A DNA stretch of 47,467 nucleotides, from positions 1-47,467 of the forward strand of contig PULR01000014.1 of assembly GCA_003551005.1 (NCBI GenBank), given 5' to 3'. Origin of the DNA: Mollicutes bacterium. Lineage in GTDB: Bacteria > Bacillota_I > Bacilli_A > Izemoplasmatales > Izemoplasmataceae. Shown here one piece after another: positions 15,461 to 40,501 of the stretch. Both the position numbers and the translations under genes were made by a program. Under the pieces are notes generated by a model. It was not told the DNA's origin. It searched no databases and worked only from the letters and a program-made list of their open reading frames with translations. Position 1 is the stretch's first letter. Each line of letters begins with the position of its first letter.

Positions 15461-15952
15461 GTGATCGACATCGAACGCAAAGATTCGAAACGCATCATGC
15501 AGCTCGCCATCGAACGGGCAAGAGAAACCATGAACGAGGATCTCGGCGGTCCTTTCGGGGCCGCGATCATCGACGATGACGGCAATGTCCTCGCCGTCGC
15601 TTCGAACACCGTGCTCGGCGACAACGACGCGACGGCGCACGCCGAAATCAACGCCATCCGCGCCGCTTCGAAACAAAAAGGCACGCACGACCTCTCCGGC
15701 TGCACGCTCTATACGACCGGCTATCCCTGCCCGATGTGCCTCGGGGCGATCATCTGGGCGAACATCAAGGACATCGTCTACGGCTGCCGCCCCGAAGACG
15801 CCGACCGCATCGGCTTCCGCGACGATTTCATCTACGACTTCATCAAGAACGGCAGCTCCGAGCGCTCGATCCTCAAGATCGACGAGGCCGAGCGCGACGC
15901 GTGTCTCGAACTGTTCAACGAGTACGCCAGGAAAGACAAGGAAATCTACTGA
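15461..15952 (+). CDS. guaD: Guanine deaminase (cytidine deaminase-like fold)
   Basis: A 163-residue CDA-fold deaminase, similar in length to Bacillus GuaD. The zinc site is complete: HAEINAI, then PCPMCLGAI. The ending RIGFRDDFIYDFI is characteristic of guanine deaminase and not of tRNA or cytosine deaminases. It turns guanine into xanthine and ammonia, which would feed the purine operon that faces it across a shared terminator. No ATG lies in a sensible place; the frame upstream closes at 15457 or earlier. The only standard start is the GTG at 15461, which is itself part of the ribosome-site-like AGAGGTGATC. The adeC gene has the same AGGTGATCGAC before a true ATG, and here the matching triplet is ATC. 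Confidence 0.88.
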   Translation: MIDIERKDSKRIMQLAIERARETMNEDLGGPFGAAIIDDDGNVLAVASNTVLGDNDATAHAEINAIRAASKQKGTHDLSGCTLYTTGYPCPMCLGAIIWANIKDIVYGCRPEDADRIGFRDDFIYDFIKNGSSERSILKIDEAERDACLELFNEYARKDKEIY

Positions 15953-16024: not shown

Positions 16025-17008
16025 TTACTTATCGCCCATGGTGAGGGCCATGACGGCCTTGGCGGTGTGCAGGCGGTTCTCCGCCTCCTGATAGACGACC
16101 GAACGCTCGCCGTCGATGACGGAGTCCTCGACCTCGTTGCCGCGGTCGGCGGGCAGGGCGTGCATGTAGATGACGTCATCCTTTGCGAGCGCCATCCGCT
16201 CCTCGGTGCATTTCCAGTCGCGGTTGGCTTCAAGCAGGTTGTCCAGATTGACGTCCGTCTGCTTGCCCGACCAGTTGCCCCAGTTCTTGGGGATGACGAC
16301 GTCGGCGTCCTTGAAGGCTTCGTCCATGTCGTGGGTCACGGTGAAGGTGCCGCCGTTCTGCTCGGCGAGCGTTTTCGCCTTCTCGATCGCCCAGTCGGGG
16401 AGTTCATAGCCTTCCGGATGCGCGAGCACGACATCCATGCCGAAACGCGGGAAGAGCAGCGTCTGCGTGAGCGGGACGCTGATGGGCTTCTTGTGGCTGG
16501 TCGCATAAGCCCAGATGATGGAGACTTTGAGGTTCTTGGTGTCTGGTTTCGTCTCGCGGATGGTCATCAAATCCGCCAGTCCCTGCATCGGATGGTACAA
16601 ATCGCACTGCAGGTTCATCACCGGAACGGTGGCGTTGTCGGCCATCTCGCGGATGAACTGGTTGCCTTCCTGCCAGTTGCAGTTGCGACAGGCGATGGCA
16701 TGCCCGTAGGAAGAGAGGATGACGGCGGTGTCCTTGCCGGTCTCGCCGTGCGAGATCTGCATCGTCGAGGTATCGAGGAAGTTGGCATGTCCGCCCAGCT
16801 GGGCGATGCCGGCCTCCATGGAGTTGCGCGTGCGGGTCGATTGTTCGAAGAACATGAGGAAGGACGTCTTGTTCTTGAGGAAGTCGGTGACTTCGTTGTT
16901 GTGGAATTTCTCCTTGAGTTCGGCGGAGACATCAAGCAGCTTCTCGATCTGCGAGACGTCCCACTCCTGCAGGGTGACAAAATGCTTGCCTTTGTAAAGT
17001 GGTTGCAT
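16025..17008 (-). CDS. YgeW-like carbamoyltransferase
   Basis: A 327-residue member of the aspartate/ornithine carbamoyltransferase family. STRTR at 57-61 binds carbamoyl phosphate, HPMQGLAD at 139-146 and HALPADRG near 279 complete the active site. The segment SHGETGKDTAV and NLQCDLYHP follow the pattern of E. coli YgeW rather than ArgF, though YgeW is about 70 residues longer. Inference: run backwards it would phosphorolyse a carbamoyl (ureido) intermediate of purine breakdown to carbamoyl phosphate, from which a carbamate kinase elsewhere could make ATP. It is the last gene of the 17-gene operon, with AAGGAGCG ahead of the ATG. The true acceptor is not known. Confidence 0.82.
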   Translation of the reverse strand: MQPLYKGKHFVTLQEWDVSQIEKLLDVSAELKEKFHNNEVTDFLKNKTSFLMFFEQSTRTRNSMEAGIAQLGGHANFLDTSTMQISHGETGKDTAVILSSYGHAIACRNCNWQEGNQFIREMADNATVPVMNLQCDLYHPMQGLADLMTIRETKPDTKNLKVSIIWAYATSHKKPISVPLTQTLLFPRFGMDVVLAHPEGYELPDWAIEKAKTLAEQNGGTFTVTHDMDEAFKDADVVIPKNWGNWSGKQTDVNLDNLLEANRDWKCTEERMALAKDDVIYMHALPADRGNEVEDSVIDGERSVVYQEAENRLHTAKAVMALTMGDK

Positions 17009-17034: not shown

Positions 17035-18246
17035 TTATTTGTCGAGTCGTTTCAGATATTGACCGGGAATCACCGCATACATCGCGGCGGCTGCCACAAG
17101 ATGGTCCTTGCGGGTCTTCTCGTTGGGTGCGTGGGCCTCTTCTTCAAAGCCGGGACCGAAGCCGATGGTGGGGATGTCGTAGCGGCCCATGATGGAGACG
17201 GCGTTCGTCGAGAAGGTCCACTTGTCGACGAGCGGCTTCGAGCCCCAGAGGTTCTCATAGGCATCCACGAGCGTCTGGGTGGCGATGTGGTCCTCATCGA
17301 GGACCCAGCTCGGGAAATAGGCGTCCTGCGGATAGACGAGGCCGGTGTAGGAGGGTTCGCGGTATTCGTACATCTCGACCGTCGCCCCGTATTTCCTGAC
17401 CGAAGGCAGCGAGCGGATCTCTTCAAGCGCGCCTTCGTGGCTCTCACCGGCGGTGAGGCGGCGGTCCACCGACACGCTGCAGCCATCCGCGACGGCGCAA
17501 CGCGAGGGCGAGGAGGAGAAAATCTCGCTGACTGTGAGCGTCCCCTTGCCGAGGAAGGCATCGTCCTTGAGATTGCCCGCGAGCTCTTCGAGCTCGCTGA
17601 GGATCGGCCCCATCTTGAAGATGGCGTTGTCCCCGCGCTCAGGGGCGCTTCCGTGACAGCTCACGCCATGCGTGGAGACCTTGATCTCCATCCGGCCGCG
17701 ATGGCCGCGATAGACGTTGAGCGAGGTGGGTTCGGTGATGACGACGAACTCGGGCCGTACGCCGAGCTCTTCGATGATGTAGACCCAGGGGAGCCCGTCG
17801 CAGTCCTCCTCCTGCACGGTTCCTGTCACGAGCAGCGTGTAGTCGTCCTCGAGGCCGAGGTCCTTGATGACTTTCCCGGCGTAGACCATCGAGGCCATGC
17901 CGCCTTCCTGGTCGCTGGTGCCGCGGCCGCCGATCTCTTCGTCGGTCTCGTAGCCTTCGAAGGGGTCGAAGTCCCAGTTGTCGCGGTCGCCGACGCCGAC
18001 GGTGTCGATGTGGGCGTCCATGGCGATGAGGTGCTTGCCGCTACCGATGGTGCCGTGGATGTTGCCCATCTTGTCGATCTCGATCTTGTCGAAGCCGACG
18101 GCCTCCATTTCCTGCTTGATGCGCTGGATGACTTCCCCCTCCTCGCCGCCTTCACTCGGCAGGCGGACCATGTCGCGCAGGAAGCGGGTCATATCCTGTT
18201 CATACTCCTGTGCTTTTTTCAATACAGTTTCGAATGGAATATCCAT
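17035..18246 (-). CDS. ygeY: YgeY-family M20 metallohydrolase
   Basis: A 403-residue M20-type amidohydrolase, the same length as E. coli YgeY. Metal ligands are visible: His79-Ile-Asp81, Asp112 in GTSDQEGG, the general base pair Glu146-Glu147 in VQEEDCDG, and the dimerisation-domain stretch [12 protein letters not shown] with HGSAPERG. The ATG at 18246 has GGAGGAACG upstream; a TTG two codons earlier is less likely. YgeY proteins occur in selenium-linked and purine-degradation clusters and are thought to cut an amide in a late open-chain intermediate. Adjacent genes are a PLP enzyme and a carbamoyltransferase, which fits that late role. Confidence 0.9.
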
Positions 18247-18248
18247 AA

Positions 18249-19634
18249 TCAATCGTTCCTCCTTTTAGATTCAATCTGTTCACGGTACTGCTGGATCTTC
18301 TCGTTGTATTCGAAGACGCGTTCGTATTCTCTCTCCCAGAACTCCTGGCTTTTCATGGTGTCGAGATACTCCTGCTCATAGCCGAACTTGAGCCAGTCGT
18401 CCTCTTTTTGCTTGAAGAGACGCTGCTTGCTTTGTTCATCGCGGGTGTCCTCGATGTAATCGGTGCCGGCCCGCATGAAGATGTCGCGGAACCAGCGGCG
18501 CTGGACGGTCGCACCGGTCTCGAGATAGCGGCGCTCGAGATCCTCGAGGACGCTTTCGTAGCGGTCGAAGCCATCCGTCGCGACGGTGACGACGTTCTCC
18601 TCGGGACCGAGCTTCAGATGCTTCGCCATCTTGATTGCACCGAGGATGTTGGCGACGCCGCTGACGCCGAATGCCTCGCGCAAAGCTTCGGCGGCTTCCC
18701 TCGGGACACCGTGCTCCACAAGCACATCCGTGCCGTCGTGGATGATCTTCAGACCGCGGACCGCGTCGTCATCGGGAATCAAGGCGATGAAGTCGGTCGT
18801 CAGCACGTTGTGGATCAGGGTGCACATCTTGTCGCCGACGCCTTCGATGCGATGCTGGCCGCGACCCCCGTCCATGAGCGTCGAGCATTCATACGGCTCG
18901 AGCGCAACGGTCTTGGATTCGGGGAACGCCTTCTTGATCTGATCGCCCGCCGCGAGCGTGCCGGCGCTGCCGGGGGCGGCGGCGAAACACGCGACGCGGC
19001 CGTTACCGACGTCCTTGGTCGCCTCAAGAGCGCTGTTGCCGGTGACGTAGCGATGGAACCGGTAGTTCGGCATCAGCTCGAACTGCGCGAGCGAGTAGTT
19101 CTTCTCCTGTTTGGCGAGTTCGTGCGTCTTCTCGAGCGTGAGGATGACGTCGGATTCGGTGCCCGGCGTCAAGTCCAGCTTCGCCCCATACCCCTGGATG
19201 CGGTCGTAGCGTTCCTTGCTCATGTTATCCGGCATGATGATGGTTGAATCGAAGCCCATCAGGTTGGTGATGTAGGCGACGCCGATGCCGAAATTGCCGG
19301 TCGACGGCCCGAGGATGTCGTGGTAACCCGGTTTGAGAGTGCCGTCGACAACGCCCTCGATCAACGTCGAATAAGCCGGACCGACTTTGTGCGAACCGCT
19401 CGGGAAATGGTTGCCGAGCAGCACGACGATGTTGGCGTCAACGCCGGTCATGGCCTTGGGCAGGACGACGCGGTTGACCCGGCCATCGTCTTTGCGCCAG
19501 GAGATGTTGAAAAGGTTCATGGGGTCCAGTTCGTCTTTTCTGGCCTCGCGGGCCTGCCTGCGAAGCTCCTCCGACAACGTCTCCGGTCGGAGCATCTCCT
19601 CGTATGTCGGCCCGTAGGGATAGTAATTCTTCAT
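18249..19634 (-). CDS. PLP fold-type II enzyme (cysteine synthase/TrpB-like) at the YgeX position
   Basis: A 461-residue PLP enzyme of fold type II. The cofactor lysine should be Lys83 in [10 protein letters not shown]; the substrate-binding Asn/Gly stretch reads [14 protein letters not shown] and the phosphate-binding glycines are in [11 protein letters not shown]. In E. coli this operon position is held by YgeX, diaminopropionate ammonia-lyase, but YgeX has a different lysine region (AFKMLGGAY), so this is not a plain YgeX. A helical charged C-terminal extension (about 375-461) is longer than in typical relatives. It overlaps the preceding gene by one base (TAATG). Beta-elimination or substitution on an amino acid derived from the purine ring is an inference. 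Confidence 0.75.
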
Positions 19635-20890
19635 TATTCTGTGTCCTCCTTGTCATGTGTGTGCTTCAGATGCGCCTTGAGCGCATCCAGATCCGGCGGC
19701 AGTTTCGTGGGCGGCGGCAGCTTCGTCTTTGCCGTGTCCGGATCCTTGAGCCCGTTGCCCGTGACAATCACGGCAATCCGCGCCGCTTTGTCAATCACAC
19801 CGTCCCTGCGCGCGCGAATGGCGCCGGCCAAGGAAGCGGCGGCCGCCGGTTCGGCGAAGATGCCCTCCCGGGCGCCGAGCGTTTGCATGGCTTGGATGAT
19901 TTCCTCATCGGTGACGGTGACCCATTCGCCGTCGCTCTCGCGGACGGCGCGCAGAGCCTTTTTCGGATTGCGCGGGATGCCGACGGCGATGCTGTCGGCG
20001 AGGGTCCGCTCTTCGCATTCGATTAACTCCCCGCCACAGGCGGCCGCATCGACGAACGGCCGGCAGCCTTCGGCCTGAACCCCGACGATGCGGGGAATCC
20101 GTTCGATCAGGCCAAGCTGCAACAAGTCATAGAAGCCTTTGTAGACACCGCCGATGGTGCAGCCGTCACCGACGCTCACCACGACGTAATCCGGGACGTC
20201 GAAAGCAAGCTGTTCGGCAATCTCGAGGGCGACGGTCTTCTTGCCCTCGACCATGTGGGGATTGATCGCCGCGTTGCGATTATACCAGCCGAATGTCTCG
20301 ATAGCGGCTTTGGAGAGGTTGAAGGCGTCCTTGTAATCGCCTTCGACGCTGATGACCTCGGCCCCGTAGGCGGCCAGCTGGGTCAGCTTGCCCGAAGGTG
20401 CGCGCTCGGGGACGAAGATGAAGGCTTCAAGCCCGAGCCTGGCGGCGTTGCCCGCTAGACTCGAGGCGGCGTTGCCCGTCGAGGAGCAGGCGATGTTGCG
20501 ATGCCCCTCCTCGTCCGCCTTCAAGACCGCGATTGCGGATGCGCGGTCCTTGAGGGAACCGGTCGGATTCACGCCGTCGTCCTTGAGATAGAGCTTCGCG
20601 ACGTCGATCTCCCCGGCGAGCCGCAAGGAATCATAAAGCGGCGTCCAGCCGACGGCGAGCGATTCACCCGCCCGGTCGCCGGAGACGCTCATCAATGGTA
20701 GATAGCGCCACATCGAACGCTCCGTACAGGAGTCGAAATAGGCGGCATCGACCTGCTTGCGCATGGTGTCGTAGTCGTAGATGACATCGAGGATGCCCTT
20801 TTCCCCGCAGGCGGGACAGGTGAGATGCGTCGAGGTCTTCTCGTAAGCCGCCCCGCAGAGCGTGCAGGCATAATGGCTGACATGCTCCAC
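19634..20890 (-). CDS. Threonine synthase-like PLP enzyme with N-terminal zinc ribbon
   Basis: A 418-residue fold-type II PLP enzyme. The N-terminus has a zinc ribbon (Cys9, Cys12, Cys25, Cys28), seen in threonine synthase, cysteate synthase and relatives. The PLP lysine is in NPTGSLKDRAS, followed by CSSTGNAASSLAG and a glycine loop near VSVGDGCTIGG. The start is a GTG at 20890, one base after the adeC stop; the longer frame lies inside adeC. A role in threonine synthesis is unlikely because no other threonine gene is near and it is embedded in a purine operon. It may act in tandem with the next PLP enzyme, which it overlaps by one base. The reaction is unknown. Confidence 0.78.
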   Translation of the reverse strand: MEHVSHYACTLCGAAYEKTSTHLTCPACGEKGILDVIYDYDTMRKQVDAAYFDSCTERSMWRYLPLMSVSGDRAGESLAVGWTPLYDSLRLAGEIDVAKLYLKDDGVNPTGSLKDRASAIAVLKADEEGHRNIACSSTGNAASSLAGNAARLGLEAFIFVPERAPSGKLTQLAAYGAEVISVEGDYKDAFNLSKAAIETFGWYNRNAAINPHMVEGKKTVALEIAEQLAFDVPDYVVVSVGDGCTIGGVYKGFYDLLQLGLIERIPRIVGVQAEGCRPFVDAAACGGELIECEERTLADSIAVGIPRNPKKALRAVRESDGEWVTVTDEEIIQAMQTLGAREGIFAEPAAAASLAGAIRARRDGVIDKAARIAVIVTGNGLKDPDTAKTKLPPPTKLPPDLDALKAHLKHTHDKEDTE

Positions 20891-20891
20891 A

Positions 20892-22616
20892 TCAATCGCC
20901 CCCCGCTTCGGCTTCGATGGCCACATTCGAGAAGGTGCGCACATCAAACAGGCCGTTGTCGGTGAGCTTCAAGTCCGGAATGACGGGCAGCGAGAGGAAC
21001 GCCAGGCTGATGAAGGGGTCGTCGATGGTCTTTGAGAGACCCATCCCGCGGACCTTGCCTTTCATCCGTTCAAGCGTCTGCGCGACAACCTTCGACGGTT
21101 TCGTGCTCATGATGCCGGCGACATCGAGACGCAGATAATCGTCGACAACGCCTTCCTTCGCAAGCACGATGCCTCCCTGGATTTCGACAATCTTCTCCAT
21201 CGCGGCACGCATCGACGCATCATCATCGCCCACGACGACGAGGTTGTGGGAGTCATGCGCAATCGTCATCGCGATGGCGCCGCCTTGGAATCCGAACCCG
21301 CGTACCAATCCGAGACCGTAGTTGTTCGTCCCGTGATGGCGCTCGATGACGGCGAGCTTGAGCCGGTCCTGCGAAGGATCGTGTACATAGGTTCCCTCCT
21401 CGACGTTGACCGTCTCGATGAGGCACCGGGTGGTGATATTCTTCTCGATGAGGCCGATGACTTTCACCCGCTCTTGTTGCAACCGCAGGGTGAAATCGAT
21501 GGCCGCGGGGTCGACGTGCACCGTGTCGCGCACAGCTTCGCCCACCTCCCGCGGCACCTTGAACAACGGCTCTCCATCCTGAGCGACCCGGCGGCCCTCC
21601 TTGTAGACGAGCCGGGGTTCGATGCGCTCCAGACTGTCGAAGACGATGAAGTCCGCCTTGCGGCCCGGGGCGATGGCGCCGTGGCGATCCAATCCATAAG
21701 CATTCGCCGCGTTGAGCGTCGCCATGCGGATGGCCACTAAGGGGGGGACGCCCGCCTCGATCGCGAGGTTGACGTTGTAGTTGATGTGTCCTTCGGCGCG
21801 GATGTCCTCGGGATGCTTATCATCCGTGCAGAAGAGCAGCCGGTCGCTCCATTGCGGATCGAATCCCTCAAGCAGCGTCCGGACGTTGCGCGTGGCCGAG
21901 CCTTCCCTCAGATGCACGTACATGCCCCGCTTGATTCGCTCAAGCAGCTCCTCGACGGTGCTGCATTCGTGGTCCGTCTGCACGCCTGCCGCGACGTAGG
22001 CGTTCAAGTCGTTGCCGAGCACGCCCGGCGCATGTCCGTCAATCGGGGCGGGCTGCATCGCGCGGATCTTGCCGTGGATGTCGTCATCCCCCTCGAGCAC
22101 GCCGGGGTAGTTCATCACTTCACCGAGGCCGAGGACACCCGGCTCCTTCGCGAGGGTCCGGATGTCCTCGACGCCGATCGTGGCGCCGGCGGTCTCGAAT
22201 TCGGTCGCGGGGACGCTTGAGGGGATCATCATGTAGACTTCCAGCGGTGCCTTTTTTGCATTCTCAAGCATGTAGCGGATGCCGTCCGCCCCGGAGACGT
22301 TGGCAATCTCGTGCGGGTCGGCGATGATAGTCGTCGTTCCCTTGGGCAAAATAACAGCGGAGAACTGGGCGGGGGTGACCATCGAGGACTCGATGTGGAC
22401 GTGCCCGTCGATGAATCCCGGGGCGAGATAGGCGCCGGCAAGGTCGATCTCCTCTTTGCCTGAATACTCGCCGACGCCAAGGATGACGCCGTCCTCTACA
22501 GCCACGTCCGCACGCTCGATCTCAAGGGTGAAGACGTTGACGACGCGGGCGTTCTTGAGCACCACTTCGGCGGGATGCCGTCCTCGGGCGATAGTCATCT
22601 TGTGTCTGTCGTTCAT
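20892..22616 (-). CDS. adeC: Adenine deaminase
   Basis: A 574-residue amidohydrolase of the AdeC/AdeA type that converts adenine to hypoxanthine and ammonia. Motifs: GFIDGHVHIESSMV with the metal HxH pair, IADPHEIANV, the DGHAPG loop and FCTDDKHPEDI, all specific to bacterial adenine deaminase; the C-terminal domain has MTIAHDSHNLVVVG. It starts at the ATG at 22616, preceded by AAGGTGATCGAC. It is followed one base later by a PLP enzyme. Its presence in the operon shows that adenine, as well as guanine and oxopurines, is meant to enter the pathway. Confidence 0.95.
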   Translation of the reverse strand: MNDRHKMTIARGRHPAEVVLKNARVVNVFTLEIERADVAVEDGVILGVGEYSGKEEIDLAGAYLAPGFIDGHVHIESSMVTPAQFSAVILPKGTTTIIADPHEIANVSGADGIRYMLENAKKAPLEVYMMIPSSVPATEFETAGATIGVEDIRTLAKEPGVLGLGEVMNYPGVLEGDDDIHGKIRAMQPAPIDGHAPGVLGNDLNAYVAAGVQTDHECSTVEELLERIKRGMYVHLREGSATRNVRTLLEGFDPQWSDRLLFCTDDKHPEDIRAEGHINYNVNLAIEAGVPPLVAIRMATLNAANAYGLDRHGAIAPGRKADFIVFDSLERIEPRLVYKEGRRVAQDGEPLFKVPREVGEAVRDTVHVDPAAIDFTLRLQQERVKVIGLIEKNITTRCLIETVNVEEGTYVHDPSQDRLKLAVIERHHGTNNYGLGLVRGFGFQGGAIAMTIAHDSHNLVVVGDDDASMRAAMEKIVEIQGGIVLAKEGVVDDYLRLDVAGIMSTKPSKVVAQTLERMKGKVRGMGLSKTIDDPFISLAFLSLPVIPDLKLTDNGLFDVRTFSNVAIEAEAGGD

Positions 22617-22629
22617 GTCGATCACCTTC

Positions 22630-23469
22630 TCACAAGGAATGGATGTAGTCTTCGATCAGGTTCAAGGCTACCTGACGACGATACGTCGCTGTCGACCGCT
22701 GATCGTCGATGGGGCGCACGTAGGGGGCGTATGCTTCGCGGATCTCCTGCGAGCGGGCTTTGAGGTCGGCGGCGGTCAGCCCCTGGTATTGTGCCTCGAT
22801 CTCGCGGCGGCGCACGACGGTGGTGTTGACCGCGCCGAGAGCGAGCCGCAGGTCCTTGATGACGTCGCCATCAAAGGCGGCGGCGCCGAGGAAAGAAACT
22901 TTCGAGATGGCGTCGGCCTTGCGGCCGCCGACCTTCTTGAAGCGTTCCGAATCGAAGTCTTCAAGCGGTATCCTGATCTCGCGGATCATCTCGCCGTCTT
23001 CGAACGCGGTGCGCCCGGGGCCGGTGATGGCCTCTTCGATGGGAATTTCGCGCGTCGCATCGGCGCTGTCCAATACGACGCGTGCATCGAGGGCGTAGAG
23101 GACAAGCACGCCATCGGCCGCGGGGGAGGCGTTGCCGATGTTGCCCGCGAGGGTCGCGACCCGGCGCAGGCCGGGTGAGGCCAGCAGGGCGATGCAGCGC
23201 TTGAGGGCCGAAGGGGTGTCGGGGTGGCGTTCAAGCATGTCGTAGCTTGCCAGCGCGCCCACATGAAGCATGTCCCCTTCGCGTTCGATATAGCGGAGCT
23301 CTTCCAGGTTGTAGACATAGAGCGTGTCCTTCTTGAAGGCGACCGGTGTCTCGCTCCACGCGCGGTTTTGGACCATGAGGTCCGTTCCGCCCGCGAGGAT
23401 ATGAAGACTGCCACTCTTGAGGTGCTCGAGCGCCTCGCGGTAGGTCTTGGGAATGATATGCCTCACCAT
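22630..23469 (-). CDS. Molybdenum hydroxylase FAD-binding subunit (second set)
   Basis: A 279-residue FAD subunit of the xanthine dehydrogenase family (E. coli XdhB/YgfM-like). The FAD pyrophosphate motifs are AGGTDLMVQ (about 27-35) and TLAGNIGNASPAAD (about 104-117), followed by the C-terminal CO dehydrogenase flavoprotein domain with the LALGAVNTTVVR stretch. It passes electrons from the 2Fe-2S subunit to NAD or another acceptor. The ATG at 23469 lies inside the end of the 2Fe-2S gene, with AAGGTGAAGG upstream. Together with the next two genes it makes a complete three-part hydroxylase. Confidence 0.92.
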   Translation of the reverse strand: MVRHIIPKTYREALEHLKSGSLHILAGGTDLMVQNRAWSETPVAFKKDTLYVYNLEELRYIEREGDMLHVGALASYDMLERHPDTPSALKRCIALLASPGLRRVATLAGNIGNASPAADGVLVLYALDARVVLDSADATREIPIEEAITGPGRTAFEDGEMIREIRIPLEDFDSERFKKVGGRKADAISKVSFLGAAAFDGDVIKDLRLALGAVNTTVVRRREIEAQYQGLTAADLKARSQEIREAYAPYVRPIDDQRSTATYRRQVALNLIEDYIHSL

Positions 23470-23936
23470 AATCCTTCACCTTCCTTCGCGGCGCGGCGAA
23501 TGGCGGCGATGATCATGTTATAGCCGGTGCAGCGGCACAGATTTCCCGCCAGGCCGTGCCGGATCTCCTCGTCGGTGGGGTCGGGGTTTTCTCTGAGCAT
23601 GCTCTCCGCGGCGATCATCATCCCGGGGGTGCAGATGCCGCACTGGACCGCGCCCTCTTCGATAAAGGCCTTCTCGAGCATCTGATAGCGCTCGGTCATG
23701 CGATAGCCTTCGATCGTGACCACATCACGACCATCGACGCTCGCCAGCGGCAAGAGACAGGAATTGACGATGTGGCCATCGAGCAGGATGGCGCACGCGC
23801 CGCATTCACCTTCGCCGCAGCCTTCCTTCGCACCGGTATGGTTGAGCTTCTCGCGGAGCACATCGAGGAAGCGCAGATTCGGTTCCTCGCGCAGTGTGAT
23901 GCGTTCGCCGTTGAGTGTGAACGTGATATCAGCCAT
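23463..23936 (-). CDS. Molybdenum hydroxylase 2Fe-2S subunit (second set)
   Basis: A 157-residue two-domain iron-sulfur subunit. The plant-type ferredoxin cluster is bound by Cys40, Cys45, Cys48 and Cys60 (CGEGECGAC); the second cluster by Cys99, Cys102, Cys134 and Cys136 (CGIC and CRC). Both sets are complete. It carries electrons from the molybdenum centre to the FAD subunit. It overlaps its partners on both sides (8 bases with the Mo subunit, 7 with the FAD subunit), consistent with fixed-ratio synthesis. Confidence 0.95.
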   Translation of the reverse strand: MADITFTLNGERITLREEPNLRFLDVLREKLNHTGAKEGCGEGECGACAILLDGHIVNSCLLPLASVDGRDVVTIEGYRMTERYQMLEKAFIEEGAVQCGICTPGMMIAAESMLRENPDPTDEEIRHGLAGNLCRCTGYNMIIAAIRRAAKEGEGLW

Positions 23937-26028
23937 TGTGGATCAACTCCATGATATATTCAGGTGTCACGGGCGCCTTGCGGACCCGGCGGCCGATGGC
24001 TTGCTCGATCGCCAGCGCCACGGCCGGCGGTCCGCCGACCAGCGTCAGCTCGCCCACGCCCTTCGCACCATAGGGGCCGAGAGGATAGGGATTGTCCATG
24101 ATGTGGTTCTCGGTCTTGGGCATGTCGACGGCCGTGGGGATGATGTAGTCGGTGAGGTTCTTCTGCTTGAGGGCGCCGCCTTCGTGCTCCATGACTTCGA
24201 GGTAGCCAAGGCCGACCACGCCCTGGGCCTGACCGCCATCCGCCTGACCGAGGACGATGCGTTCATCGATGGCCTTGCCGAGGTCGTAGACGCTCCACAC
24301 ATGCTTGATGTCGACTTCGTAGGTGACTTTCGAGACTTCCACCTCGACGACGTTGACGCCCCACGAATAGGCGGGGTAGGCGTCGCCTTTCATCCGGTCC
24401 TGGTCCCATTCGATGTAATCCGGCTGCTTGTAGCGTTGCATGGCCTCCTGTACCTCGCCTTCGCGCCAGGATTCCTTGAGGTCCTTCGCCGCACGGGCCA
24501 GCAGGCCGCCGACAACCATCATCGTGCGCGAAGCGACCGTGGGGCCGCTGTCGGGGACGTAGCGGGTGTCGGGGTAGGGGAAGAGCACCTGCTCAAGCGG
24601 CAGGTCGAGCACATCGGCGACGAGCTTGCGGAACGTCGTCTTCGGTCCCTGCCCCATGTCGACCGCGGCCACGAGGATGCGCACGGTGCCATCGGCATCC
24701 TTCTTCAGTTTGACGCGGGCCTTGATCTTCTCCTGCTCGCCGCTGCCGGTGAAGCCGCAGCCGTGGAGGAACCAGCTCATGCCGATGCCCTTGAATGTAT
24801 CGGGGTCTTCGTATTCCTTGCGCTTGCGATGGTAATCGGAGATCTCCTCGGCCTTTTTCGACATCTCATCGAGGATGATCGGGTCACGATAGACGCCGCC
24901 GGTCGAGGTCAGATCGCCCTGGGAGACCTGGTGGCGGGTGCGGAACGTGTAAGTATCCTCCCCGACTTCCTTGGCCACGTGATGGATGAACATCTCGATC
25001 GCGAAGATCATCTGCGGCGCGCCGAAACCGCGGAAGGCGCCGTTGGGGACGGTGTTGGTCACATACACGTCGCCGTCCACCCAGACGTTGTCGATGGTGT
25101 AGGCGTTCGTCGCCGCGAGCATCCCCCGGGAGAGCACCACGCCCGAGAGGCCGAGATAGGCGCCGCCATCGAGGCCGACGTGGGCCCTGAGGCCCTGGAT
25201 GTTGTTGTTCTCATCAAGAGCGGCTTCCATGCGCACCTTGGAAGGATGCCGCTTGGTGGTCGCGATCATGTCCTCCTCCCGCTCGTAGATGAACTTGATC
25301 GGCTTTTGGACCTTGCGCAGGGCGACCGCGAGCTGCGTCGCCGTCAGCGAGGGGAATTCCTCCTTGCCTCCGAAGGCGCCGCCGACCGGCGCCTGGATGA
25401 CCCGGACGTCGTCTTCGTCGGCGGCCATGGTCGCAAGCACCGCATTCTTGACGTAGTAAGGGCATTGAATCGAGCCGACCAGCGTGTAGGTGCCTTCATC
25501 CAGATACCCCACGAACCCCTGGGGTTCGATGTAGGCTTGGTCCTGATAGCCGGTTTCGTACTCATAAGAGACGGTCCGCGCGGCGGTCTCGAAGGCGCGG
25601 TCCGGATCGCCCTTGTCGTAGTGGAGGTCGATGGCGCTGTTGGTGAAGCCGAAGGTTGGCTCCAACTCCTCGAACTCGATCTCGACGGCGTCCGCGAGCT
25701 CGGCGACCTTCTCCTTATCAGGACCGACAACCAGCAGAATCGGCTCGCCGATGTAGGCGACTTCCGTCTTTGGGAAGACCGGCCAGTCGTCGTGAATCAT
25801 CTTGACCACATTCTCGCCGGGGATGTCTCGGTGGTCGACGACCACGTAGCCCTTGGGCAGCGAGGGCAGGTTGACCTGCTTGATCCGCCCGCGGGGGATG
25901 GGGGAGCGCACACTCTTGGCGTAATGCATGCCATCAAGCTTGATGTCGCTGGTGAAGGCCGCGGCGCCGGAGATCTTCTCGCGGCTGTCGACCTTCTCGA
26001 TGGAACGGGAAATATCCTGTTTCTTCAT
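23929..26028 (-). CDS. Molybdenum hydroxylase catalytic (Mo) subunit, short form (second set)
   Basis: A 699-residue xanthine dehydrogenase-family molybdopterin subunit. Cofactor-binding blocks are GGAFGGKEE (about 214-222) and NGAFRGFGAPQ, and the base Glu is in YGAKGVGEL near residue 660. The start is the ATG at 26028 with GAGGTGAAGG ahead; a GTG three codons earlier is possible. It is shorter than the other Mo subunit (777) and resembles the Mo part of E. coli XdhD. Hydroxylation of a purine, or the reverse dehydroxylation, is the likely reaction; which purine is not shown by the sequence. Selenium-containing forms exist in this family, and YqeB/YgfJ-like accessory genes in the same operon make that possible here. 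Confidence 0.9.
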   Translation of the reverse strand: MKKQDISRSIEKVDSREKISGAAAFTSDIKLDGMHYAKSVRSPIPRGRIKQVNLPSLPKGYVVVDHRDIPGENVVKMIHDDWPVFPKTEVAYIGEPILLVVGPDKEKVAELADAVEIEFEELEPTFGFTNSAIDLHYDKGDPDRAFETAARTVSYEYETGYQDQAYIEPQGFVGYLDEGTYTLVGSIQCPYYVKNAVLATMAADEDDVRVIQAPVGGAFGGKEEFPSLTATQLAVALRKVQKPIKFIYEREEDMIATTKRHPSKVRMEAALDENNNIQGLRAHVGLDGGAYLGLSGVVLSRGMLAATNAYTIDNVWVDGDVYVTNTVPNGAFRGFGAPQMIFAIEMFIHHVAKEVGEDTYTFRTRHQVSQGDLTSTGGVYRDPIILDEMSKKAEEISDYHRKRKEYEDPDTFKGIGMSWFLHGCGFTGSGEQEKIKARVKLKKDADGTVRILVAAVDMGQGPKTTFRKLVADVLDLPLEQVLFPYPDTRYVPDSGPTVASRTMMVVGGLLARAAKDLKESWREGEVQEAMQRYKQPDYIEWDQDRMKGDAYPAYSWGVNVVEVEVSKVTYEVDIKHVWSVYDLGKAIDERIVLGQADGGQAQGVVGLGYLEVMEHEGGALKQKNLTDYIIPTAVDMPKTENHIMDNPYPLGPYGAKGVGELTLVGGPPAVALAIEQAIGRRVRKAPVTPEYIMELIHNG

Positions 26029-26033
26029 ACCCT

Positions 26034-27128
26034 TCACCTCAATTTATCCATTTCAATGGCATCGGTCGGGCAGACCGACACGCAGAGTCCGCAGCTGAAA
26101 CATTTATCCGGGGCGAACGTGATCCTGTCCTTGAATTCAATCGCGAAATACGGACACGTCTTCACACAAAGCATGCATTCGATGCATTTCTCCTCGATCA
26201 GCGTCGGCAGCTCGTCCTCGTAGCTGGTCGGATTGTCGAGCTCGGTGCCGATGACGTCCTCAACGGAATCGAAGCCGAATTTTTCAAGCACCTTCGGGAG
26301 GTCCCTGATGATTTTGGCATACAGCTGCTTGCCTTTGAGAAGCGCGCCTGAGAGCATCTGCACACCGCTCGCGCCGGCAAGAAGGAACTCGACGACATCC
26401 TCGGCGGAAGCGACGCCCCCGACACCGATGACGGTCAGGTCCGGCTCGGCCTGTTTGATCTTGTAGACCGTCGCGAGCGCGAGGTTCTTGATGACGGGAC
26501 CCGTCGTCCACACGAAACCGTCCTCGGGCGCGTATTCAATGCGCCGTCGGGCGGGGTTGATGTTTATCGTGGGGCCGAGGGAGTTGATCGCGACGACTCC
26601 GTTCGCCCCCGCTTCCTTGATCGCTTTAGCGTAGTTCTCCGCATCGGGGATATGGGGCGAGATCTTCATGTAGAAGGGTTTATTCGTCAAGGAACGGATG
26701 GTGCGCACGGTATCGGCGATCACCGAGAGGTCCGTACCGACGTAGTGGGTCGAGACCTCGAACGCATCCGCGAACGGCTCGAGTCTGGGGATGAGCGTCT
26801 CCATGTCCGCTTTCGAATACCCCACGCTGATGATGAGCGGCCGGTCGTTTTTTTTCCGGTAGGCGGGAAGAAACGTCTCCACCCAGCGTTCCATGGGGTG
26901 TTCGCTCCACAGCTCGCTGTTCATGACGAACTGCCGCCTGGTGTCGGTGTAGATGCAGGGCTTGGGAATCTTAGGTTCCCTGGGGGCGATGGTCTTCGTG
27001 ACCACCGCGCCGGTGCCGGCCTCATCACGCATGAAGGACAGTTTCTCGAGATCCCCGACCAGGGGACCGGAGGCTGGCATCAGTGGATTTTCAAGCGTCA
27101 AGCCGTCGAACTGGGTTCTGAGTTTCAT
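26034..27128 (-). CDS. PreA/dihydroorotate dehydrogenase-like FMN protein with two C-terminal [4Fe-4S] clusters
   Basis: A 364-residue protein with a TIM-barrel dihydroorotate dehydrogenase domain (1-300; GLTLENPLMPASGP at the start, INSLGPTININ and VIGVGGVASAEDVVEFLLAGA for FMN) and a ferredoxin tail binding two clusters (Cys315/318/321/325 and Cys343/346/349/353). It resembles PreA, which reduces uracil or thymine. The loop that in PreA reads NFSCPHG with a nearby catalytic Cys is here VSTHYVGTD (125-133) without cysteine, so the substrate is probably different. No PreT partner is in the window. In the E. coli locus the reductive step is assigned to YgfK; this protein may fill that role by reducing a purine-derived ring, with low-potential electrons. 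That role is inferred. Confidence 0.85.
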   Translation of the reverse strand: MKLRTQFDGLTLENPLMPASGPLVGDLEKLSFMRDEAGTGAVVTKTIAPREPKIPKPCIYTDTRRQFVMNSELWSEHPMERWVETFLPAYRKKNDRPLIISVGYSKADMETLIPRLEPFADAFEVSTHYVGTDLSVIADTVRTIRSLTNKPFYMKISPHIPDAENYAKAIKEAGANGVVAINSLGPTININPARRRIEYAPEDGFVWTTGPVIKNLALATVYKIKQAEPDLTVIGVGGVASAEDVVEFLLAGASGVQMLSGALLKGKQLYAKIIRDLPKVLEKFGFDSVEDVIGTELDNPTSYEDELPTLIEEKCIECMLCVKTCPYFAIEFKDRITFAPDKCFSCGLCVSVCPTDAIEMDKLR

Positions 27129-28437: not shown

Positions 28438-29727
28438 TCACTCCTTTTGTAGATAACGCCCTTCAACGGGGATGAACCGTCCATCCTTCAAGACGAAGCG
28501 GACGCGGAGGATGGTCGATTCGACACTTCCCCTGGCGGGATGGTTCGTATAGGCGCTGTAGTCCGCGGCGCTGTGGTTTTCCTGAATGGTGCGTTCGCCG
28601 AGGCGATACACCATGATATCCGCATCGCTTCCTTCGGCGATCACGCCCTTGCGTGGGTAGAGGCCGAAGGCATGCGCGACATTCCGTGACATTTTATTGA
28701 TAGCCGACTCGCCAAGATGGTAATACATCACATCAAAGGCGTGTTCGACCCCGCCGATGCCAAGCGGGAGCTTTGAGAGCCTGTCGGCTTGCTTCTGCTC
28801 GCTCGTGAAAGGCGCGTGATCGGTGCCGATAGTATTGATATGCGCCGCATGTTCATGCAGCACTCGCCGTTCCGTCTCGCTGCGCAGTGGCGGTGCGAAG
28901 GAGAAAAGTCTGCCCGTTTCACCGCGGAGCTTTTCCGCGTTGAAGGAAAAGTACTGCGGGCAGCTTTCCACGAGGAAATGCTTCCCGATCAACGGTCTGT
29001 ATGCATCGAGCAGCCGCCGCAGGGTCTCGCCGCTGCTGAGGTGCACCATGTAGAGGCGGCCGCCGGTCTCTTGCACAAAGCCTGCGAGTTTCAGCGCTTC
29101 GTCGGTCTCGCTCGAGCTCGGGCGGCTTTGCGGCAGGTGTTCGTGCGTAAATGATTCATCAAGTATGATCTGCTCGTCGTCCTCGATGTGGGCGAGCACG
29201 AGCGGTCCGTCTACGGACCGCTCGAGCAGACGACGAATCTGTGCATCGTAGGTCCGGCGGCCGGAATCGGAGTAGGTGGTGAAAAGCTTGATGGAATCTA
29301 GACCGAGCGACTCCGCCGTATCGACGAAGGCGTCGGCATCCACCGGATTCTTGACGGTGGCGTGCAGGCGGTAATCGACATAGCTGGTGCCGATCTGCTC
29401 CCTGGCCGCATCAAAGTTCTTCTGCAGTTCGGCGCTGTCGCGGGCGGGCTCGAGGAAGTCGATGACCGTCGTGACGCCGCCGTGAATCGCCGCCCGGCTT
29501 CCGCTCTCGAAATCGTCTGCGGTGGAGAGACCGCCGATTTCGAGCAGGAAATGCACGTGCGGGTCGATCAGCCCGGGCAGCACCAGTGCTCCTTCGGCGT
29601 CATAGGCTTCCGCCGCGTCCAGGGTGCGATCGCTGATGCGGGCGATACGGCCGTCCTTCACATATACATTCGTCTGTTTGAAACCCTCACCGAGATAAAC
29701 GTGTCCATGCTTGATGGCAAGGTCCAT
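28438..29727 (-). CDS. hyuA: HyuA-like cyclic amidohydrolase (dihydropyrimidinase/allantoinase family)
   Basis: A 429-residue amidohydrolase that opens cyclic amides. The binuclear metal site is complete: His57 and His59 in DPHVHF, Lys147 in SIKLFTTY (the lysine that becomes carboxylated), the His in LAHIEDD and in VHLSSGE, and the Asp in GTDHAPF. It starts at the ATG at 29727, seven bases after AGGAGG; an ATG two codons upstream is too close to that site. It is the counterpart of E. coli hyuA in the ygeW-xdhD locus. A likely job is hydrolysis of a dihydropyrimidine or imidazolone-type ring made by the PreA-like enzyme, which is an inference from the context. Confidence 0.9.
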   Translation of the reverse strand: MDLAIKHGHVYLGEGFKQTNVYVKDGRIARISDRTLDAAEAYDAEGALVLPGLIDPHVHFLLEIGGLSTADDFESGSRAAIHGGVTTVIDFLEPARDSAELQKNFDAAREQIGTSYVDYRLHATVKNPVDADAFVDTAESLGLDSIKLFTTYSDSGRRTYDAQIRRLLERSVDGPLVLAHIEDDEQIILDESFTHEHLPQSRPSSSETDEALKLAGFVQETGGRLYMVHLSSGETLRRLLDAYRPLIGKHFLVESCPQYFSFNAEKLRGETGRLFSFAPPLRSETERRVLHEHAAHINTIGTDHAPFTSEQKQADRLSKLPLGIGGVEHAFDVMYYHLGESAINKMSRNVAHAFGLYPRKGVIAEGSDADIMVYRLGERTIQENHSAADYSAYTNHPARGSVESTILRVRFVLKDGRFIPVEGRYLQKE

Positions 29728-29729
29728 GC

Positions 29730-30203
29730 TCATGCCTCCTGAGGAACGATTCGGTAGTTGGTGATGCCATATTGTTCGATTACTTGCTCAAGCGCTGACT
29801 GCCGCACGCTCAGATACACGTCAAGACGACTGTCGACCAGCAGGCTAACGACCGCATCGAACCCGTCACCACGAAGTTCGAGCGGACCCACTTCGTCAAG
29901 GAAGAGCGGCTCGATACGGCGTTCGACCAAAGCGGACATCACATTTTCGACCCGCTTTGTCGCCTCGAGGAAGAATCGATAAGGACCGAGGGTCGAAGCC
30001 GCCGGGGAGGGTTCGTTTGAAGCAGTGCGCACAGCCAGCGTGAAACGTTCGCCGCTGCTGAGCCGCTGACACTCGTAGCGAAGCGGGCCGTCCGCACCCA
30101 TGTGCTTGATGGAGACGAACCCATCGCCGCCGAGCTGTTCATGCAGCGTGAGCATGCGGGTGGTCTTGCCGCTGTCAATCCTCCCAGTAACGATATGGAT
30201 CAT
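29730..30203 (-). CDS. THEP1-like P-loop NTPase, probable hydroxylase accessory protein
   Basis: A 157-residue nucleotide-binding protein of the THEP1 type. Walker A is GRIDSGKTT (7-15), and the Walker B strand is PLFLDEVGPLEL near residue 100. The ATG at 30203 lies 29 bases inside the preceding gene and has GGGAG seven bases upstream. In E. coli the same place between the XdhC-like yqeB and hyuA holds yqeC, an accessory gene of selenium-linked hydroxylases; sequence identity to YqeC cannot be judged here. A role in making or inserting the molybdenum cofactor is inferred from its position between an XdhC-like factor and the structural genes. Confidence 0.75.
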   Translation of the reverse strand: MIHIVTGRIDSGKTTRMLTLHEQLGGDGFVSIKHMGADGPLRYECQRLSSGERFTLAVRTASNEPSPAASTLGPYRFFLEATKRVENVMSALVERRIEPLFLDEVGPLELRGDGFDAVVSLLVDSRLDVYLSVRQSALEQVIEQYGITNYRIVPQEA

Positions 30204-31135: not shown

Positions 31136-33469
31136 TCACGTATCGGTCCTGGACTCTTTTAATGCAGCAACAATCTTCTCGGGCGTGATCGGCAATGAAC
31201 GGATGCGGACGCCCAGCGCGTTCTCGACGGCGTTGGCGAGTGCCGCCGGGGGCGTGTCGATGCCGATCTCGGCGACGGACTTCGCACCATACGGCCCGCT
31301 ATCTTCATAGCTGTCGGCGAATTCCGTCGTCAGTTTCTTGACGGTATAATTATCGGGGATCTTGTAGTTGAGGAAATCCTTGCTGATGAGCTTGCCTTTC
31401 TTGCTGTAGTGTTCATCCTCCGTCAAGGCCATGCCGATGCCCTGGACGATGCCGCCTTCAATCTGGCCGCGGGCGAGGGCCGGGTTGATGGTCGTTCCAC
31501 AATCTACGACGCTGACATAATCGAGGATGTCGAGTTCTCCCGTCTCACGGTCGATTTCAATCTCGACGAACCCCACCATGAACGGCGGCGGGGACTTAGT
31601 CCCGTAATAACTGCCGGTCGTGGTCAGCTGTTTCTGGTCTTCGTTGTAATACAGCTTCGTCGCGAGCTCGCCGAGGTCGATGCCGGGCGAGCCATCCTCC
31701 GCTTCAAAGCGGCCGTCTTCGTAGATGATCGCCTCCGGGGAGGTCTGCATCGAGCGGGCGGCTTCCTCGACGAGCCGGCTGCGCATCTGCTGTGCGGCCT
31801 TGAGCACGGCGTTGCCCGAGACGTAGGTCGTGCTCGAGGCATAGGCGCCGACGTCGAAGGGAGTCAGATCCGTATCGGAGGAGTAGACCACCATCTTCTC
31901 AAGCGGCACTTCGAGCTGTTCCGCCGCAATCTGCGCGAGGATGGTATCACTGCCCTGTCCGATGTCGGTCGCGCCGACGGTGAGGTTGAAGAAACCGTCG
32001 TCGTTGAGCTTCAAGGTCGCGGCCCCCATGTCGATATAGGGGATGCCGCTGCCCTGCATTGCAATCGCCCCGCCGATGCTGCGGATTTTATGTTCCGAGA
32101 CTTCGCGGCGGGGGGATTTCTCCTCGTAGCCGATGAGTTCCATCCCCCGCTTGACGCAATAGTCGAGCTTGCAGGATTCCATGTCCATCGCGGTGCCCTC
32201 GGTGCCTTCGCCCATGACTTCGAAGATGGGCGAGGTCTCCCCTTCGAGGATCATGTTCTTCTGCCGCAGAGCCATGGGGTCCATGCCGAGCTTGTCCGCG
32301 ACCTTGTCGATGGCGCTTTCCAGCGCGAAGTTCCCTTGCACCGCCCCGTAGCCGCGGAAAGCGCCGGAGGAGACATGATTCGTGTAGACGACATCGCCGG
32401 CGAACCGCACGGCGTCGACCTTGTTGTAAAGCGGGAGCACTTTCGAGCCGGTGACCATGTAGACGGTGAGCGCATGTTCACCGTATGCACCGGTATCGGA
32501 GAGCCCCTGGAGGTCGAGGGCCGTCAGACGTCCGTCCTTCGTGGATCCGATGCGGATATTGAGACGCATCGGATGACGTGTATAGGAGGATTCGAACACT
32601 TCCTGACGCGTATAGGTGAGTTTGCTGGGGCGTCCGGTGCGGAGCGTGACGGCTGCGGCCAGCATCTCACCATGAATCGCCTGCTTGCCGCCGAAGCCGC
32701 CGCCCACTCGCGGTTTGATGACACGGATGCGGCTGATGGGGACTTCCAGCGTCTGCGAGAGGATGCGACGGACGTGGAAAGGGGTCTGCGTCGCGCTGAA
32801 AAGCACCAGCCGGTCCTGATAATCGATGTGGGCGTTGACAGTGTGCGGTTCGAGCATGGTGTGAGCCTGAGCCTGCGTATAGAAGGTCTCTTCCACAACA
32901 ACGTCGCTTTGCGCGAGCGTCTGCTCCACATCCCCGATCTCCATGTGATAGCTCGCCGCGACATTCCGCTCGGGGTCGAAGCCGATGGGGAACATCTCAT
33001 AGACTTCTTTTTCCGGATGGATGATGGAGTCGTGGCCCTTGGCGGATTCGAAATCCAGCACGGGTTCGTAGACTTCGTATTCGACATCGATCGCATCCAA
33101 AGCGGAGAGGGCCGTCTCTTCATCGACGGCGGCGACGGCGGCGACTTCGTCACCGACGTAGCGGACGTATTCATCGAGCACGAACTTATCGTGCGGCGAA
33201 GGTTCAGGATAACCCTGACCGGCGCGGGTGAAGGGGTTCCGCTTGAAATCCTTGTGGGTCAGGACGATTTCGACCCCTTCCATGGCCTCTGCGGCCGAGG
33301 TGTCGATGGAGGCGATGCGGGCGAAAGGATGCGGGCTTCTTAAAACCTTGATGGTCAGGGCGTCAACCGGAGCGAAATCATCGGTATAGGCCGGTCGTCC
33401 CATCATGATACCCTTGCCGTCGACGGAGGGAAACTGGGTGTTGACCGTCTTGAACGTCTTCTTCTTCAT
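31136..33469 (-). CDS. Molybdenum hydroxylase catalytic (Mo) subunit, XdhA-like (first set)
   Basis: A 777-residue molybdopterin subunit of the xanthine dehydrogenase family, near the usual XdhA length. Cofactor blocks are GGGFGGKQA (about 254-262) and GAFRGYGAVQG, the VGATDIGQGSDT loop, and the base Glu in YGAKSVAEIG near residue 733. The N-terminal a/b hammerhead domain is intact. With the next two genes upstream it makes a full Mo/2Fe-2S/FAD enzyme. Xanthine or hypoxanthine is the expected substrate because adenine and guanine deaminases feed these compounds, but other N-heterocycles are not excluded. It starts at 33469, overlapping the 2Fe-2S gene by four bases. Confidence 0.92.
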   Translation of the reverse strand: MKKKTFKTVNTQFPSVDGKGIMMGRPAYTDDFAPVDALTIKVLRSPHPFARIASIDTSAAEAMEGVEIVLTHKDFKRNPFTRAGQGYPEPSPHDKFVLDEYVRYVGDEVAAVAAVDEETALSALDAIDVEYEVYEPVLDFESAKGHDSIIHPEKEVYEMFPIGFDPERNVAASYHMEIGDVEQTLAQSDVVVEETFYTQAQAHTMLEPHTVNAHIDYQDRLVLFSATQTPFHVRRILSQTLEVPISRIRVIKPRVGGGFGGKQAIHGEMLAAAVTLRTGRPSKLTYTRQEVFESSYTRHPMRLNIRIGSTKDGRLTALDLQGLSDTGAYGEHALTVYMVTGSKVLPLYNKVDAVRFAGDVVYTNHVSSGAFRGYGAVQGNFALESAIDKVADKLGMDPMALRQKNMILEGETSPIFEVMGEGTEGTAMDMESCKLDYCVKRGMELIGYEEKSPRREVSEHKIRSIGGAIAMQGSGIPYIDMGAATLKLNDDGFFNLTVGATDIGQGSDTILAQIAAEQLEVPLEKMVVYSSDTDLTPFDVGAYASSTTYVSGNAVLKAAQQMRSRLVEEAARSMQTSPEAIIYEDGRFEAEDGSPGIDLGELATKLYYNEDQKQLTTTGSYYGTKSPPPFMVGFVEIEIDRETGELDILDYVSVVDCGTTINPALARGQIEGGIVQGIGMALTEDEHYSKKGKLISKDFLNYKIPDNYTVKKLTTEFADSYEDSGPYGAKSVAEIGIDTPPAALANAVENALGVRIRSLPITPEKIVAALKESRTDT

Positions 33470-33918
33470 TTTTCATCACCTAGATAGGCCTTGATTGCTT
33501 CGTGCTGGGATTGATAACCGGTACAGCGGCACAAATGCCCCACAAGATGGCGGCGGATGGTCTCATCATCCGTATCGGACTCTTTTTCCTGCATGGCGTG
33601 GACAGTGAGCGCGATGCCGGGGTTGCAGAAGCCGCACTGATCCGCGCCGGTCTGTCCGAATTCCTCGGCCAAAGCGGAGGCCGTCTCGGGGATGCCTTCG
33701 ACGGTCGTGACGGCGCGCTGGTCGGCGCGGACGCTGAGAAAGGCGCAGGAAGGTATCGGGTCGCCATCGACAAGCACGGTGCAGACACCGCAGCTCGTGG
33801 TGTCGCAGCCGCGGCGGACGCTTTTGTATCCGAGTTTTTTCAAAGTGTCGACAAGATAATCGTCGGGGCTGACCTCGACACTGCGTCGACGCGCGTTCAC
33901 AGTCAATTCAATCTTCAC
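33466..33918 (-). CDS. Molybdenum hydroxylase 2Fe-2S subunit (first set)
   Basis: A 150-residue two-cluster iron-sulfur subunit. The first cluster uses Cys38, Cys43, Cys46 and Cys58; the spacing CDTTSCGVC matches, and the second uses Cys95, Cys98, Cys130 and Cys132 (CGFC and CRC). It shuttles electrons from the Mo site to FAD. The gene overlaps both the Mo and FAD subunit genes. It differs clearly from the other 2Fe-2S subunit in the operon, so the two sets are not a recent duplication. Confidence 0.95.
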   Translation of the reverse strand: MKIELTVNARRRSVEVSPDDYLVDTLKKLGYKSVRRGCDTTSCGVCTVLVDGDPIPSCAFLSVRADQRAVTTVEGIPETASALAEEFGQTGADQCGFCNPGIALTVHAMQEKESDTDDETIRRHLVGHLCRCTGYQSQHEAIKAYLGDEK

Positions 33919-34708: not shown

Positions 34709-35277
34709 GTATGGTCCCCTTTCTGCCAATTTAAGGCTTTGCGGTAGTCTTCCGGTGTATCGACGTCGAAGAGCACACCGGGGTCTTCCACCGTTACTTC
34801 TGTGAGCGGGTGATTCTTCCTGAAGGTCTTCAGATTCGCCGTTTCTGAGAGTGCGAGAATGTCAGGGGCCAGCGCTTTTTCAATGAAGAGGGGGTGGCCT
34901 CTTCTTTTTCCGTGTTTTGGCACCCGGATCGGTCCTTGCGCTTCCAGGAGCGCCCGGTAGGTAGAAAACCTAACGAAGGGAATATCTCCGGGAAGCATGA
35001 AAAAATCGTCCCCTATCTGCCGGACACCACACTGTACGGAGGTGAACATGCCTGCCTCGAAACGCGGGTTGTGCACAATCACGACATCAGCCGCGTCCTC
35101 GAAGAGGCGTTCAACCTCCTTATGGTAGCGGCCGCTGACAACCACCAATCGGTCGACATGAGGACGCATGCTGTTGACGGTGTGTTCGAGCAACGGAATC
35201 CCGTCGATGTCGAACAGCATTTTATTTTGTTTGGCTCGCGACGAATAGCCGCCAGCCAGGATTATTCCATGAGGCAT
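34705..35277 (-). CDS. mocA: Molybdenum cofactor nucleotidyltransferase MocA-like (YgfJ-like)
   Basis: A 190-residue MobA-like NTP transferase. The nucleotide motif LAGGYSSRAKQNKML (residues 6-20) and PGDIPFVR, which holds the metal Asp, are both present. It should add CMP (or another nucleotide) to molybdopterin for the xanthine dehydrogenase type of cofactor. I chose the ATG at 35277; AAGGAG is 12 bases upstream, a long spacing, and a second ATG at 35310 sits before that site. It is the first gene of the 17-gene operon, so the message begins with cofactor synthesis. The E. coli locus has the same gene as ygfJ/mocA. Confidence 0.88.
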   Translation of the reverse strand: MPHGIILAGGYSSRAKQNKMLFDIDGIPLLEHTVNSMRPHVDRLVVVSGRYHKEVERLFEDAADVVIVHNPRFEAGMFTSVQCGVRQIGDDFFMLPGDIPFVRFSTYRALLEAQGPIRVPKHGKRRGHPLFIEKALAPDILALSETANLKTFRKNHPLTEVTVEDPGVLFDVDTPEDYRKALNWQKGDHT

Positions 35278-40482: not shown

Positions 40483-40501
40483 GGTTACATTCTCCTTCTT
40501 T

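Follow-up and report, generated by a model that had tools for sequence, protein, structure and literature searches.

In the reductive route of anaerobic uric acid degradation, YgeW or UacY and then YgeY remove two ureido groups; the resulting 2,3-diaminopropionate (DAP) is cleaved by YgeX to pyruvate and ammonia (PMC12507026). The biochemistry of this pathway, which is tied to gout and hyperuricaemia, was worked out only in 2025, and its last step has been assigned to YgeX. The stretch of DNA analysed here (47,467 nt, referred to as the window) carries an operon of this kind in which two other PLP fold type II enzymes, here termed ThrCL and CysKL, occupy the position of YgeX, raising the question of how degradation is completed in this organism.

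The operon and its host genome

The genes on which the analysis is based are the following.

15461..15952, plus strand: small CMP/guanine-deaminase-type protein, convergent to the operon (weak TadA match; position kept in many relatives)
16025..17008, minus strand: OTC-type carbamoyltransferase, 327 aa, in place of knotted YgeW (TIGR00658 255 bits, cut-off 281; TIGR03316, YgeW, 196 bits, cut-off 500)
17035..18252, minus strand: YgeY, M20 hydrolase, yielding DAP in the published pathway (TIGR03526 671 bits, cut-off 321.5)
18249..19634, minus strand: CysKL, 461-aa cysteine-synthase-like PLP fold-II enzyme with an HRIEG[IV]GDK motif and a helical C-terminal extension
19634..20890, minus strand: ThrCL, threonine-synthase-like PLP fold-II enzyme with an N-terminal Cys4 ribbon, in the YgeX slot
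20892..22625, minus strand: adenine deaminase (TIGR01178 615 bits, cut-off 472.5)
22630..26037, minus strand: xanthine-dehydrogenase-type molybdenum hydroxylase, three subunits
26034..27128, minus strand: UacX-like (PydA/DHOD-type) reductase (DHOD and PreA family matches; role by comparison with PMC12507026)
27125..28441, minus strand: SsnA-like aminohydrolase (PRK07203 336 bits, cut-off 444)
28438..29733, minus strand: HyuA-like hydantoinase (TIGR02033 231 bits, cut-off 393)
31136..34729, minus strand: second Mo hydroxylase (XdhD-like) with Fe-S and FAD subunits

The window thus resembles the published reductive uric acid cluster in its two Mo hydroxylases with accessory genes, UacX-type reductase, SsnA, HyuA (these last two scoring under their curated cut-offs), carbamoyltransferase and YgeY, and differs from it in having ThrCL and CysKL for YgeX and an OTC-type enzyme for knotted YgeW (PMC12507026); a profile search of the window recovered neither of these two markers. 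Conversely, neither ThrCL nor CysKL occurs in the E. coli urate cluster, which spans 30 kb. The operon is best explained as encoding the reductive uric-acid pathway as far as DAP. Two further observations were made. An NTPase_1 family protein (29730-30203), also present in two other loci (L111, L116), lies within the operon between HyuA and an XdhC-type chaperone. At 38767-42213 there is an NADH-dependent [FeFe] hydrogenase of group A6, accompanied by a NuoF-like subunit and a neighbouring small ORF, as a possible electron source or sink for the urate reductases.

The host genome (1.35 Mb, 97% complete) has Izemoplasmatales MAGs as its close relatives, and this order includes known DNA degraders that possess xanthine-degradation loci (PMC8289736). 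The loci of Extended Data Fig. 9 of that paper, in which deaminases and xanthine dehydrogenases were noted, are very likely the same as those described here; its text mentions neither threonine nor ureido compounds. Four PF00291 proteins are encoded in the genome, namely ThrCL, CysKL, a separate CysK and OrtB. The last of these, an OrtB-like 2-amino-4-oxopentanoate thiolase subunit located elsewhere (G000:C50:4866-5783), hints that this small genome may encode fermentation of ornithine, and its separate location ruled out OrtB as the identity of CysKL.

Identity of ThrCL and CysKL

A preliminary description of the locus had reported a threonine-synthase-like protein with a Cys4 ribbon, followed by a 461-residue enzyme with a PSGSHK motif and a charged C-terminal extension, the two genes overlapping by one base ahead of ygeY and standing where a DAP lyase is expected; all of these features were recovered. 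The most plausible start codon of ThrCL is a GTG at position 20890, one base past the stop of the adenine deaminase gene, although its longest open reading frame (437 aa) extends from a TTG at 20947. The protein carries a CxxC...CxxC ribbon at its N-terminus. CysKL starts with ATG, has PSGSHK at residues 78-83 and continues beyond about residue 362 as the charged helical extension. Base 19634 is common to both genes (a TAATG overlap), and the CysKL gene in turn overlaps ygeY.

Neither protein groups with YgeX. ThrCL and CysKL share with this DAP ammonia-lyase the PLP fold type II, the position adjoining ygeY in a uric-acid cluster and presumably the same substrate pool, but no protein of the genome exceeds the curated cut-off of the YgeX model (TIGR03528, 532 bits), the best match reaching 34 bits. 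The lysine region of YgeX (AFKMLGGAY) is missing from both, in keeping with the preliminary description, its AFK..GG and TDGN segments being represented by SLKDRAS and STGN in ThrCL and by SHKVGPA and STGN in CysKL. Neither therefore has a counterpart of the TDGN aspartate, which we take to serve the D-isomer of DAP. In the tree, which we rely on for its tight clades alone as the deep joins between long branches are unsure (program warning), YgeX forms a clade with SH-aLRT 100 that includes neither ThrCL nor CysKL, and the placement of the second enzyme within the YgeX clade, which would have spoken against the earlier reading, was thus not found.

ThrCL has the fold, catalytic lysine and GNGLKD motif of threonine synthase (ThrC; TIGR00260/PRK08197), is 35-38% identical to solved ThrC proteins, and its zinc-ribbon region falls under the PRK08197 model. 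It matches the PALP family with an E-value of 1e-81, scores 300 bits with PRK08197, slightly below the cut-off of 303, and 220 bits with TIGR00260, above the cut-off of 167, as a consequence of which annotation pipelines would call it ThrC; all 19 ThrCL proteins examined match the latter model. The structure predicted for it (pLDDT 83) is closest to the solved folds of ThrC (6nmx/1v7c), and its fold-II relatives include serine racemases. ThrCL nevertheless differs from ThrC in its pocket, in sitting in a catabolic operon and in having no homoserine pathway to serve. ThrCL sequences form one clade (SH-aLRT 99) apart from true ThrC sequences, and an alignment of 25 ThrCL with 6 true ThrC sequences revealed 33 differing positions. 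Pocket positions that are constant in true ThrC are altered in all 25 (GNAGN to GDGC[ST], and ATAI to ADSI), and NS..R is replaced by AA..L/M; residues D241, C243, D298 and R306 of ThrCL correspond to N, G, T and A in true ThrC. Several of the ThrC pocket residues presumably hold the substrate phosphate, as in solved ThrC complexes.

The preliminary description had held that its reading would fall if ThrCL were the sole ThrC of the organism. Taken literally this is the case, as the genome holds no ThrC homologue besides ThrCL, but it does not overturn the reading, because homoserine dehydrogenase is missing, the pocket is changed and other carriers have a separate true ThrC. The homoserine dehydrogenase model (PF00742), which matched in 14 of 14 control genomes, found no such enzyme in the window genome, nor in 13 of 14 further relatives that were sampled and carry ThrCL. 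A second, true ThrC accompanies the ThrCL of the CysKL locus in eight of 12 genomes searched, the eight being Clostridia-type; the complete chromosome of Mycoplasmatota strain zrk2 has ThrCL alone. These same results, together with the separate CysK in the window genome and the recurrence of the ygeY linkage across genomes and families, leave hardly any credence for the view that the operon by chance contains an ordinary threonine synthase (ThrCL) and a surplus cysteine synthase (CysKL), even though the score above the TIGR00260 cut-off and the status of ThrCL as the only homologue are what this view would expect.

CysKL is likewise remote from its named relatives. It matches PALP with an E-value of 4e-24 and lies far under every curated cut-off (135 bits against 344 for cysKM), as does a longer paralogue, CysKLd (86-89 bits on the CysK/CysM model, cut-off 344); both belong to a clade of their own on a long stem (SH-aLRT 100). 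The predicted structure (pLDDT 84) has the CysK structure 8srv as closest solved fold (TM normalised to target 0.81). CysKL shares with the CysK/cystathionine beta-synthase core its fold and the equivalents of K41 (the PLP lysine), N71 (Asn loop), Q142 and S272, and on account of these retained residues it is probably catalytic. In contrast to CysK, to which it is about 30% identical, it has about 40 extra N-terminal and about 100 extra C-terminal residues, and HKIQGIGAG is replaced by HRIEG[IV]GDK, placing E264, D268 and K269 where CysK has Q, A and G. The label 'TrpB-like', given to it earlier, has just an HK dipeptide in its favour, and as sequence and fold place the protein beside CysK this identity was discarded.

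Distribution of the pair

Both proteins are present in 15 of 21 related genomes and both are missing from the other six (Fisher p ~2e-5 before any correction for relatedness), which indicates that the pair is conserved and not a chance association. Among 395 genomes of the Bacilli, YgeY was found in 59; 50 of these encode CysKL, in 48 instances within 40 bases of ygeY (as read from coordinates), and eight more encode CysKLd, such that 58 of the 59 have one form or the other, whereas a YgeX-like protein occurs in only two. ThrCL lies directly ahead of CysKL and ygeY in nearly all loci of Izemoplasmatales, Acholeplasmatales and Erysipelotrichaceae. In family f10, six loci (one cut by a contig end) have the order YgeY-ThrCL-CysKLd-HyuA and are devoid of YgeX, while three loci of family f5 carry CysKLd-YgeX with YgeY, from which it appears that ThrCL and YgeX take each other's place. 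In one Izemoplasmatales locus ThrCL-YgeY is accompanied, slightly further on, by CysKLd-YgeW. An OTC-type carbamoyltransferase replaces YgeW in most Bacilli loci with CysKL, the knotted YgeW being found in f5, f10 and one Izemoplasmatales genome; a rule by which short CysKL goes with the OTC type and the long paralogue with knotted YgeW held in Bacilli but broke in Clostridia-type genomes. Not all Bacillota lack YgeX, since EF_2579 of E. faecalis is listed as such (PMC2276186).

In the Clostridia-type phylum (that of genome G408) the CysKL family occurs in 86 of 398 genomes. For 80 CysKL-positive genomes of this phylum ThrCL was detected in 67, often on another contig, the two genes frequently lying far apart, and YgeX in 16, two of which lack ThrCL; about 11 contain neither ThrCL nor YgeX. 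Another two genomes, of Desulfosporosinus type, likewise have CysKL and YgeX without ThrCL. ThrCL, CysKL and YgeX are all present in at least 14 genomes. The expectation that the pair would co-occur with ygeY and a carbamoyltransferase was upheld across Bacilli and Clostridia-type genomes. The idea that two enzymes jointly stand for one held for ThrCL, which behaves as an exchangeable stand-in for YgeX, but not for CysKL, which accompanies ThrCL, YgeX or the two together. As genomes with YgeX but without ThrCL still carry CysKL, ThrCL and YgeX look like alternative partners, and CysKL like the partner of either.

The proposed end of the pathway and its alternatives

The best hint to function is that genes of serine metabolism repeatedly adjoin ThrCL or CysKL, suggesting serine as the product. 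The glyA gene adjoins ThrCL in eight loci (L051, L071, L086, L261, L262, L264, L271, L273), sdaB-sdaA, encoding L-serine dehydratase, adjoins CysKL in six (L056, L071, L242, L245, L262, L264), and ridA lies between CysKL and YgeX in L063. Among 155 CysKL loci, which are not independent as some contigs were counted twice and neighbours are related, glyA was found in 14 and sdaAB in eight. This linkage was seen in Clostridia-type genomes only, and none was detected within the window. CysK-type enzymes catalyse beta-replacement and ThrC adds water at C-beta, so that on chemical grounds either enzyme could convert DAP to serine.

From the observed position, conservation and co-occurrence of the pair, the lost threonine-synthase context and pocket residues of ThrCL, the retained catalytic residues and the serine-gene linkage elsewhere, we infer substrate, product and division of labour as follows: DAP is quite possibly, if still short of probably, converted to serine or pyruvate through ThrCL and CysKL. 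ThrCL would perform a YgeX-like step in which the beta-amino group of DAP is removed through a PLP-bound aminoacrylate, and CysKL would act as a beta-replacement enzyme of CysK descent, its nucleophile probably being water, to give L-serine as an intermediate. Serine hydroxymethyltransferase (GlyA) would then cleave this serine, or L-serine dehydratase (SdaAB) would convert it to pyruvate by deamination. Against this stand the genomes that hold ThrCL, CysKL and YgeX together, which simple replacement does not explain, and the fact that E. coli manages with YgeX alone.

An alternative that we regard as unlikely, yet worth considering, is a stereochemical division, whereby the pathway delivers D-DAP, ThrCL accepts the L-isomer only and CysKL serves as a racemase or D-specific enzyme, a helper not needed by E. 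coli, whose YgeX is active on both isomers (PMC12507026). HyuA is D-specific and R-configured intermediates have been proposed (PMC12990295), and the serine racemases among the relatives of ThrCL fit this scheme; however, CysKL also accompanies YgeX, and the STGN loop shared by both proteins weakens a D/L split. It is improbable that ThrCL and CysKL form a single hetero-oligomeric enzyme, with one subunit catalytic and the other delivering substrate or regulating: overlapping genes, matched gene order, the co-occurrence in 15/21 and 67/80 genomes and the extra helical extension of CysKL are compatible with such a complex, but the catalytic lysine is kept in both proteins, and their separation in Clostridia-type genomes and the presence of CysKL with YgeX and without ThrCL argue against it. 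Quite improbable, too, is an earlier role for CysKL, in which the ureido group of albizziin or a similar amino acid would undergo beta-elimination or replacement, leaving only ThrCL to act on DAP. The relatives of CysK include O-ureido-L-serine synthase, and two loci (L281, L283) have CysKL, YgeY and a carbamoyltransferase with neither ThrCL nor YgeX nearby, but most loci encode YgeY for the removal of that ureido group, and in L242 and L245, which have no ygeY, CysKL stands next to serine genes.

Conversion through serine by both enzymes is accordingly retained as the preferred reading, and the pair would represent a variant end of the known urate pathway, its enzymology being predicted from sequence. 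The two proteins are almost always together and may well finish the breakdown through serine in the Bacillota that carry them, for which the published end would then be incomplete. It is conceivable, albeit doubtful, that most reductive urate-degrading Bacillota end the pathway by an undescribed two-enzyme PLP route from DAP to L-serine, feeding one-carbon and glycine metabolism and hidden under the names 'threonine synthase' and 'cysteine synthase'. No account of the pair in purine degradation came up in the literature searched, and none of the terms looked for occurs in the C. difficile urate paper. The survey of Fig. 3g in PMC12507026 counted any PF00291 neighbour as YgeX, so ThrCL and CysKL would have been lumped with it. 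A substantial fraction of the Bacillota carriers, among them Erysipelotrichaceae of the rumen and Izemoplasmatales of sediments, lack YgeX and have the conserved pair, with the result that counting YgeX would miss them and counting PF00291 would misname them. Their end product, and hence energy yield and the link to serine and glycine, may differ, and two widespread families now labelled threonine or cysteine synthase would be given a function that can be tested.

A broader role for CysKL is possible in view of the genomes with neither ThrCL nor YgeX and the 29 of 155 loci without a purine gene nearby. CysKL or its long paralogue lies among non-purine genes in L244, L247, L252, L255, L280, L286 and L298, and the family may thus have a second role. 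A third CysKL subgroup (~45% identity) lies directly after ssnA in L290, L291, L292 and L294, purine clusters without ThrCL or YgeX nearby. Finally, regulator-like proteins of about 600 aa that have an N-terminal region in common are encoded between YgeX and YgeY in L063 and L075 and before CysKL in L281.
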